From Bacteroidota bacterium (lineage in GTDB: Bacteria > Bacteroidota > Bacteroidia > Flavobacteriales_D > Sanyastnellaceae): a stretch of 34,418 nt of DNA. Of the stretch, positions 6,681 through 31,844 are shown in pieces; the stretch's first letter is position 1; every line of letters starts with the position of its first letter. The DNA lies in contig VGFR01000007.1 in the NCBI GenBank assembly GCA_016868835.1, forward strand, positions 1-34,418, given 5' to 3'. The notes beneath the pieces were generated by a model, which was given only the letters and a program-made list of their open reading frames with translations, did no database searches and had not been told where the DNA came from. A program made the position numbers and the translations under genes.

Positions 6681-7157
6681 TTAAGCTAATTCAACTAAGA
6701 ACAAGGGCTGATCAAATTCAATAGGGGTACTGTCGTTTACAAGCACCTTTACAATTCGACCTGAAACTTCCGATTCAATTTCATTGAATAGCTTCATTGC
6801 CTCAACAATGCAAACCCTATCTCCCACCTTGATTTCAGAACCTACCTCAACGAAAGAAGGTTTATCCGGACCTGATGACCGGTAGAATGTGCCAATCATA
6901 GGGCTTTTAATCTCTACAAGCGTATCATTTTTAACCTCTGCAACAGCAGCTGGGGCAGCTGCGACCGCTGGTACAGGAGCAGGAGTAGCACTTACAACTG
7001 GAGCAGCAACAATGGGAGAGGCCACTTGAATGACTTCTTGTTTTGCTTTGCCATTTGCCTTGATTGTGATTTTGAAATCTTTTTGTTCAATTTCTACTTC
7101 ACTCACTCCGCTTTTCGCTACGAATTTGATTAAATCTTGAATTTGTGTAAGATTCAT
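6681..7157 (-). CDS. accB: Acetyl-CoA carboxylase biotin carboxyl carrier protein
   Basis: Ala/Pro-rich linker and biotinylation motif [13 protein letters not shown]; adjacent to accC. Confidence 0.97.
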
Positions 7158-7275
7158 TTTATTTGTTTTTTTAGAGAATAGTGGGCAAATATAACTCTAT
7201 TCAATCATTTTTTGATCGAAAATTGGATTTTTTGCGTTTTTTTGAATGACTGGTAGTGGTTGAGTACCGCGAATA

Positions 7276-22909: not shown

Positions 22910-24664
22910 ATGTTCAGAAGTGTAACGTGCGGTGAATTGCGCATTTCAGATGTAGGTAAGCAAGTGAAATTGGCCGGATGGGTTCAACGTTCGCGCGATT
23001 TGGGTGGAATGACCTTTGTTGATTTACGTGATAGATATGGTATTACACAATTGGCATTCAATATGGATACGCAAGCTGCACTGTGCGAAGCAGCCCGCAA
23101 ATGGGGAAGAGAATTTGTGGTTCAGGTGGAAGGTAAAGTGGTTGAACGTTACTCGAAAAATACAAACATTCCAACCGGAGAAATTGAAATAGAGGCGACC
23201 GCTTGTACTGTTTTGAATGCATCATTAACGCCCCCTTTCACCATTGAAGATGATACAGATGGCGGTGATGATTTACGCATGCAGTGGCGCTTTTTAGACT
23301 TACGCCGCAACCCGTTGAGGCAAAATCTCATGCTTCGTCACAAATTGGGAATTGAAACGCGTAAATACCTTGACAGCTTGGAATTCTTGGAAATTGAAAC
23401 CCCATATTTAATCAAGTCCACCCCGGAAGGTGCACGAGATTTTGTTGTGCCGAGTAGAATGAATCCAGGTCAGTTCTATGCATTGCCGCAGTCACCACAA
23501 ACGTTTAAGCAGTTGCTTATGGTCAGCGGTTACGATCGCTACTATCAAATTGTGCGTTGTTTCCGCGATGAAGATCTTCGTGCAGACCGCCAACCCGAAT
23601 TCACGCAGATAGACTGCGAAATGGCCTTTGTAGAGCAAGAAGACATTCTAAACACGTTTGAGGGGTTGATTCGCCATTTATTCAAAACTGTGAAAGGAAT
23701 TGATATTCCTGAAGTGCCGCGCATGCTGTATTCTGAGGCCATGCGGTTGTACGGGAATGATAAACCAGATATTCGTTTTGGAATGACCTTTAAAGATTTG
23801 ACAGATCTTGGGAAAGGAAAAGGATTCGGTGTATTTGATTCAGCAGAATCTATATTGGCTATCAACGTTGCTGGTTGCGCAGTGTATACGCGTGCGCAAT
23901 TAGATGAATTAACCGAATGGATGAAGCGTCCACAAATTGGAGCGAAGGGGTTAATTTATATGCGATGCAATGAAGATGGAACATTCAAATCTTCCGTAGA
24001 TAAGTTTTTCGATTCTGAATCTTTAGCGTTGTGGGCAGAACGTTGTGAATCAAAGCCAGGTGATTTGGTATTGGTTTTATCAGGCGGAACGAATGCCACA
24101 AGGAAACAATTGAGTGAATTGAGGTTGCTTATGGGTGGAAGGCTAGGGTTAAGAAATTCAGCGGTTTTCGCTCCGCTTTGGGTCATGGATTTTCCTTTGC
24201 TTGAATTCAATGAGGAAGAGGGAAGGTACTTTGCCATGCACCATCCCTTCACTTCACCCAAACCCGATCAGATTCATTTATTAGAAACAGATCCAGGATC
24301 TGTCAATGCAAATGCCTATGACTTTGTGTTGAATGGTGTTGAAATTGGCGGTGGCTCAATACGTATTCACGACAGAGAAGTACAAGCTCGAATGTTTGAT
24401 TTACTTGGATTTAGCAAGGAAGAGGCACAAGCACAGTTTGGATTTTTATTGAATGCCTTCGAGTATGGCGCACCGCCACACGGTGGATTGGCTTTTGGAT
24501 TTGATCGATTGTGCTCGTTGTTCGGTGGTAGTGAGGGAATTAGAGACTTCATTGCTTTCCCAAAAAACAACAGTGGAAGAGATGTTATGATTGATGCTCC
24601 AAGTGAAATTAACCAGGTTCAGTTGGAAGAATTATCAATTTCTGTAAAAAAGTTGGAAAACTAA
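22910..24664 (+). CDS. aspS: Aspartyl-tRNA synthetase
   Basis: [44 protein letters not shown]..., [52 protein letters not shown]. Start at ATG 22910. Confidence 0.98.
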
Positions 24665-24682
24665 AAAAAATACCTATCTTTG
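24653..24682 (+). promoter_or_regulatory. Bacteroidota-type promoter for rpmH
   Basis: TTG (24653-24655), 19 nt spacer, TATCTTTG (24675-24682); overlaps the 3' end of aspS. Confidence 0.7.
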
Positions 24683-24707
24683 CCTCCCGTTTGAAAAAAC
24701 AAAGCAT

Positions 24708-24881
24708 ATGTCAAAACGTACTTATCAACCATCGAATACCAAGCGCAGAAACAAACATGGTTTCCGTAAGCGCATGTCAACGGCTGCGGGTCGTGCAGTT
24801 TTATCTTCACGTCGTGCGAAAGGTCGCAAGAAGTTAACCACTTCAGATGAGCGTCGTCATAAAGGAATAGAGCGTCTGTAA
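24708..24881 (+). CDS. rpmH: Ribosomal protein L34 (57 aa, below the ORF-track cutoff)
   Basis: Translation [57 protein letters not shown]. Confidence 0.97.
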
Positions 24882-31221: not shown

Positions 31222-31653
31222 ATGCTATCTAAAGGCGCAACAACAACGAAAACAACTGACGGAGTTTCAGATAACGCAATCAATAGAATTGTTGAAGGAA
31301 CAATTATTGAAGGTGAAATTAGATGTGAAAGTAACATTCGAATTGACGGTATTTTTACAGGTAATATCGGTACCAAGGGACGTCTTGTTATAGGTCCAAC
31401 GGGTAAAATTGAGGGAAATATTATTTGTCAGAACGCTGAAATAGATGGTTTCGTGAAAGGGAAAATTCAAGTGGCACAACTGCTTTCATTGAAAAGCACT
31501 GCCAAAGTTGAAGGTGATATCTTCACTGATAAATTAGCTATTGAGCCAGGTGCAGCATTTACAGGTATGTGCTCTATGGGCCAGAAGCCAAAAGAGGCTC
31601 CAAAACCAAATGAACCCATTCCAACCACACCGAATCAAGGAGTAAAATCATAA
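31222..31653 (+). CDS. Bactofilin (polymer-forming cytoskeletal protein)
   Basis: NRIVEGTIIEGEIRCESNIRIDGIFTGNIGTKGRLVIGPTGKIEGNIICQNAEIDGFVKGKIQVAQLLSLKSTAKVEGDIFTDKLAIEPGAAFTGMC beta-helix pattern. Confidence 0.92.
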   Translation: MLSKGATTTKTTDGVSDNAINRIVEGTIIEGEIRCESNIRIDGIFTGNIGTKGRLVIGPTGKIEGNIICQNAEIDGFVKGKIQVAQLLSLKSTAKVEGDIFTDKLAIEPGAAFTGMCSMGQKPKEAPKPNEPIPTTPNQGVKS

Positions 31654-31844
31654 AAAATAGTTTTCTGAAATATACCAGTCTAGCGACCCAAATGGCCATT
31701 GCTATTGGGTTAGGTGTATGGATTGGAATGAAACTAGATGATTACTATCATTTGAAAAGACCATATTTAACCATGGTCTTTTCGCTTTTTGGTGTTGCCA
31801 TAGGCATGTATCAATTCATGAAAGATTTCCTAATTAAAAAATGA
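31650..31844 (+). CDS. AtpZ/AtpI-like small membrane protein, 64 aa, candidate non-canonical ATA start
   Basis: Translation (I/M)KNSFLKYTSLATQMAIAIGLGVWIGMKLDDYYHLKRPYLTMVFSLFGVAIGMYQFMKDFLIKK*: two TM segments, family-like, ATGA overlap with the next gene. First in-frame ATG only at 31692. Absent from ORF track. Confidence 0.78.
   Translation: MKNSFLKYTSLATQMAIAIGLGVWIGMKLDDYYHLKRPYLTMVFSLFGVAIGMYQFMKDFLIKK

Follow-up and report, generated by a model that had tools for sequence, protein, structure and literature searches.

atpZ is probably translated from a conserved near-cognate AUA or AUU codon at the end of the bactofilin gene in a genus of freshwater Flavobacteriales

Here we show that atpZ, in a genus of uncultured freshwater Flavobacteriales from lakes, has no canonical start codon at its expected N-terminus in any genome in which we found it. 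Its translation probably begins at a near-cognate AUH codon where the preceding bactofilin gene ends, namely AUA at position 31650 in the sequence analysed here and AUU in the relatives, a rare type of weak start that the eight genomes would have in common. A near-cognate start conserved across the genus is, in our assessment, real and, as far as the searched literature shows, new for atpZ, since our search returned no report of an AUA or AUU start for this gene.

The sequence analysed, referred to as the window, comprises positions 1 to 34,418 of the forward strand of contig VGFR01000007.1 (Bacteroidota bacterium, assembly GCA_016868835.1). In it, atpZ sits at the head of the atp operon, between the bactofilin gene, whose own ATG aligns with ATG in 7/7 relatives, and the atp genes, being followed by a gene for a 120-residue protein and then by the ATP synthase A chain (PF00119). 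Features of the locus are collected in Table 1. The product read from the ATA matches PF09527 in a profile search at 62.6 bits, compared with a cut-off of 26.6, and residues 5-58 cover profile positions 1-53 of 54.

Table 1. Features at the bactofilin-atpZ junction (positions in the window)
Feature	Position	Strand	Remarks
Bactofilin gene (PF04519)	31222..31653	+	Upstream neighbour of atpZ; 102.7 bits; TAA 31651-31653 overlaps ATA
AAGGAG, Shine-Dalgarno-like	31637..31642	+	Not conserved in relatives; probably incidental
ATA, proposed atpZ start codon	31650..31652	+	Within ATAA stop/start overlap
atpZ	31650..31844	+	64 codons counted from ATA, then TGA stop; PF09527; N-terminal codons kept as protein
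13 codons before first ATG	31653..31691	+	Coding-type substitution
First in-frame ATG of atpZ (internal Met, TQM motif)	31692..31694	+	Rejected as sole start; predicted paired in hairpin
Next gene, 120 aa	31841..32203	+	Ordinary ATGA overlap with atpZ; ATG conserved in 8/8 genomes

The atpZ frame opens after a TGA at 31611-31613 and runs through ACC CAT TCC AAC CAC ACC GAA TCA AGG AGT AAA ATC ATA AAA AAT AGT TTT CTG AAA TAT ACC AGT CTA GCG ACC CAA to its first ATG, at 31692-31694. Direct reading thus agrees with an initial annotation made from the window sequence, which had described a stretch devoid of ATG, GTG and TTG and had placed the bactofilin stop within an ATAA at 31650-31653, where both the ATA and the TAA are indeed present. 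About 26 codons without a canonical start are not rare by chance alone. The genus sample consisted of nine genomes, eight of which yielded atpZ (the window and seven relatives, the latter each assembled separately from metagenomes and for the most part labelled Flavobacteriales or Bacteroidetes), and none of these eight carries a canonical start upstream of the LKY motif; by contrast, one is available in all 73 genomes that we sampled across other genera of the same family and order. Chance absence was ruled out by this distribution. The same comparison excludes, for the genus as a whole, the option raised in the initial annotation that the ATA arose from an ATG through a single-base error in sequencing or assembly: one change would restore a normal ATGA junction, yet the same place lacks a canonical start in seven independently assembled species. 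The next junction (31841-31844), previously described as a normal ATGA, is kept as such in 8/8 genomes, and the loss of the start is therefore specific to atpZ.

Evidence that translation begins upstream of AUG 31692 comes from the pattern of substitution. Between relatives G004 and G005, the 13 codons before this ATG differ by ten synonymous and no nonsynonymous changes, and none of 20,000 random-substitution draws gave so few nonsynonymous changes; between the window and G004, the codons before the ATG show seven synonymous and four nonsynonymous changes. The other two reading frames of the same stretch give the reverse pattern, with nearly all changes nonsynonymous. Judged by these substitutions, the codons preceding AUG 31692 are under protein-level selection, from which it follows that translation starts before it. 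This bears directly on the alternative, also put forward in the initial annotation, that translation proceeds only from the internal AUG and yields a 50-residue AtpZ lacking the cytosolic N-terminus. Although that AUG is found in 8/8 genomes and both hydrophobic stretches would stay intact, the almost exclusively synonymous change in the preceding codons makes this reading very unlikely. Many genera whose atpZ has an ordinary start further upstream keep this methionine too, so the protein itself accounts for its conservation, and the shortened product would lack about 10 of the Pfam profile's 54 positions. Moreover, the adenine context of this AUG is poor and the codon is predicted to be paired in the window.

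The coding signature is exceptional in the genome sample. We compared 309 ortholog pairs within the genus, each with both 5' ends, and found that changes lying 5' of the first canonical codon were spread evenly over codon positions 1, 2 and 3 (219/231/186), as in untranslated sequence; the corresponding atpZ changes were 1/0/7, i.e., seven of eight at position 3. Among these pairs atpZ alone shows the signature convincingly, one other weak signal (two synonymous changes, one nonsynonymous) being unconvincing. Other genes of the window with large gaps were also inspected, and their conserved upstream stretches proved to be non-coding and followed by an ordinary start. A genus-wide habit of non-AUG starts was accordingly not seen in either the ortholog pairs or the inspected window genes. 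Separately, conserved TATNTTTGC-like sequences at 24648-24708 (plus strand) and about 7157-7196 (minus strand) of the window resemble the -7 promoter boxes of Bacteroidota; they immediately precede the gene that starts at 24708 and the minus-strand gene that starts at about 7157, and are common to relatives with stops in the same stretch.

As to which codon is used, alignment across relatives, which the initial annotation had proposed, places the window ATA, without gaps, opposite ATT in 7/7 relatives and opposite ATG in G075 (locus L085), a genome from another genus, in which ATG AAT AAT AGT TTT CTT CGA TAC corresponds to ATA AAA AAT AGT TTT CTG AAA TAT; no genome of the genus has a canonical start at this place. 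The bactofilin stop of the relatives is situated a few bases further upstream and is overlapped by another invariant ATT (TAATT), so that there are two AUU candidates, one in UAAUU at the stop and one six bases later. The region of the start is well supported; of the two candidates, the first has the better adenine context and the second the better alignment, and either may be the codon used in the relatives. Initiation at some other upstream near-cognate, which in the window would be ATC 31647 or CTG 31665 and in the relatives the AUU within UAAUU, appears unlikely. The relatives' first AUU does have A at both -3 and -6 in 6/7 cases and occupies the place that AUG has in a UAAUG junction, and ATC 31647 adjoins the ATA; against this, the ATC aligns with CGC, CGT or GCT and the CTG with CTA or TTA, neither being conserved as a near-cognate, while AUA aligns with AUU and with the ATG of G075.

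The nucleotide context also favours the AUA. Adenines at -3, -6, -12 and -13 are the four positive initiation determinants reported in Flavobacterium johnsoniae (PMC9976891, PMC6847099); all four precede the window ATA, compared with only A-6 for ATG 31692. The predicted probability of being unpaired is 0.77 for the ATA versus 0.13 for AUG 31692, which falls in a predicted hairpin, but this structural contrast is weaker or absent in the relatives, with AUU predicted to be no more open than AUG in several of them (L003, L005 and L009 among others). An AAGGAG 7 nt before the ATA had been noted in the initial annotation, and is present at that position. It occurs in the window only, however, the relatives carrying TTCAAAATAATT with no conserved extended motif, and Flavobacteriia ribosomes sequester the anti-Shine-Dalgarno sequence and largely ignore such motifs (PMC9976891), in line with the caveat on Bacteroidota attached to the original proposal. 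For both reasons we discount AAGGAG as support.

A different route around the missing start would be a -1 ribosomal frameshift close to the bactofilin 3' end, generating a bactofilin-AtpZ fusion in which no start codon is needed. The geometry would permit it: atpZ lies in the -1 frame relative to bactofilin, this frame is open across the junction in 8/8 genomes, and 6/7 relatives read TCA AAA TAA, where AAA could slip one base beside the stop. The window, however, has AAA TCA TAA, with a pre-stop codon that cannot slip, one relative has AAG TAA, and a slippery X XXY YYZ heptamer is absent before the stop. Strong local structure is also lacking (z = -1.4), AtpZ is made from its own start in other genera, and joining a soluble polymer to a membrane protein would be unusual. 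We therefore regard a fusion as highly improbable.

A precedent for AUA starts is found in the same order. Escherichia coli infC starts at AUU; the gene encodes IF3, the factor that rejects near-cognate codons, and autoregulation explains its weak start. In sister genomes of the genus, infC reads GGAGG-AAATATC-ATA-AAG, and across most of the sampled Flavobacteriales families the gene entirely lacks ATG, GTG and TTG while AUA is conserved, which suggests, from sequence comparison, an order-wide AUA start of infC and indicates that AUA starts appear usable in Flavobacteriales. At infC loci L145-L167 and L078-L084 the conserved sequence is (GCC)ATA GCA ATA CGA AGA or similar, and a GGAGG stands ~7 nt before the AUA in the genus and a few others. 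We did not find infC in the window's own assembly, probably because of an assembly gap, and the precedent thus comes from sister genomes; our literature search found no report on infC starts in Bacteroidota. Both infC and atpZ have a near-cognate AUH start conserved over a clade, but infC differs in that its start is explained by autoregulation, whereas we know of no role of AtpZ in translation. Taken with the aligned AUU and AUG codons and the adenine context, the infC precedent upholds the originally proposed AUA beside bactofilin termination, with the modification that the relatives have AUU, at two candidate positions.

Overlap with the stop of the bactofilin gene is suggestive of termination-reinitiation. 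A ribosome that has newly finished bactofilin at its UAA, or a 30S subunit binding the A-rich stretch, would reach the AUA or AUU, where initiator fMet-tRNA would be placed, presumably making fMet the first residue. AUA and AUU being weak initiators, AtpZ would then be made far below AUG-level amounts. The junction has the overlap geometry of ordinary coupled ATGA/TAATG junctions, such as that at the other end of atpZ in the same operon, but AUG is replaced by AUA (ATAA) or AUU (TAATT).

Comparable starts have been mapped by ribosome profiling in Staphylococcus aureus, where infC and ccpN use AUA and cvfC1 uses AUU, and where AUA/AUU reporters give about 10-30% of AUG output (PMC13009471). As with atpZ, these are single genes that keep an AUA or AUU start across related species; there it lowers output (PMC13009471), as it would in atpZ. 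The S. aureus starts, unlike that of atpZ, rely on extended Shine-Dalgarno pairing and were mapped experimentally, whereas the atpZ start is read from sequence in a lineage that largely ignores the motif; it also sits on the upstream stop codon. In Bacillus pseudofirmus OF4, AtpZ is likewise small and hydrophobic, with its gene leading the atp operon; there atpZ has been tied to the acquisition of magnesium, and atpI next to it to assembly of the synthase (PMC4453477). The atpZ genes described here differ from it in following a bactofilin gene and in having no canonical start.

Dependence of the atpZ start on IF3 or growth state might be imagined, and it is possible, although rather doubtful, that AUA/AUU is a selected device tying AtpZ synthesis to IF3 level, growth state or termination on the bactofilin mRNA in a group that does not use Shine-Dalgarno-led initiation. 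Were this so, the regulated product would be a factor of ATP-synthase assembly or magnesium transport. From a practical standpoint, gene callers limited to ATG, GTG and TTG would shorten or miss AtpZ throughout the genus. As a natural, clade-conserved case of an apparent AUA/AUU start in a bacterium without Shine-Dalgarno-led initiation, atpZ also allows a direct test of whether weak-codon use rests on adenine context, upstream-stop coupling or IF3.

A weak start would suit a protein of which little is required next to the plentiful subunits of the ATP synthase. Outside the genus, the only start options for atpZ are GTG or TTG in 21 of the 73 genomes (including L062, L071, L086, L094-L097 and L100), which is consistent with such a low-amount need; atpZ may often have a weak start.
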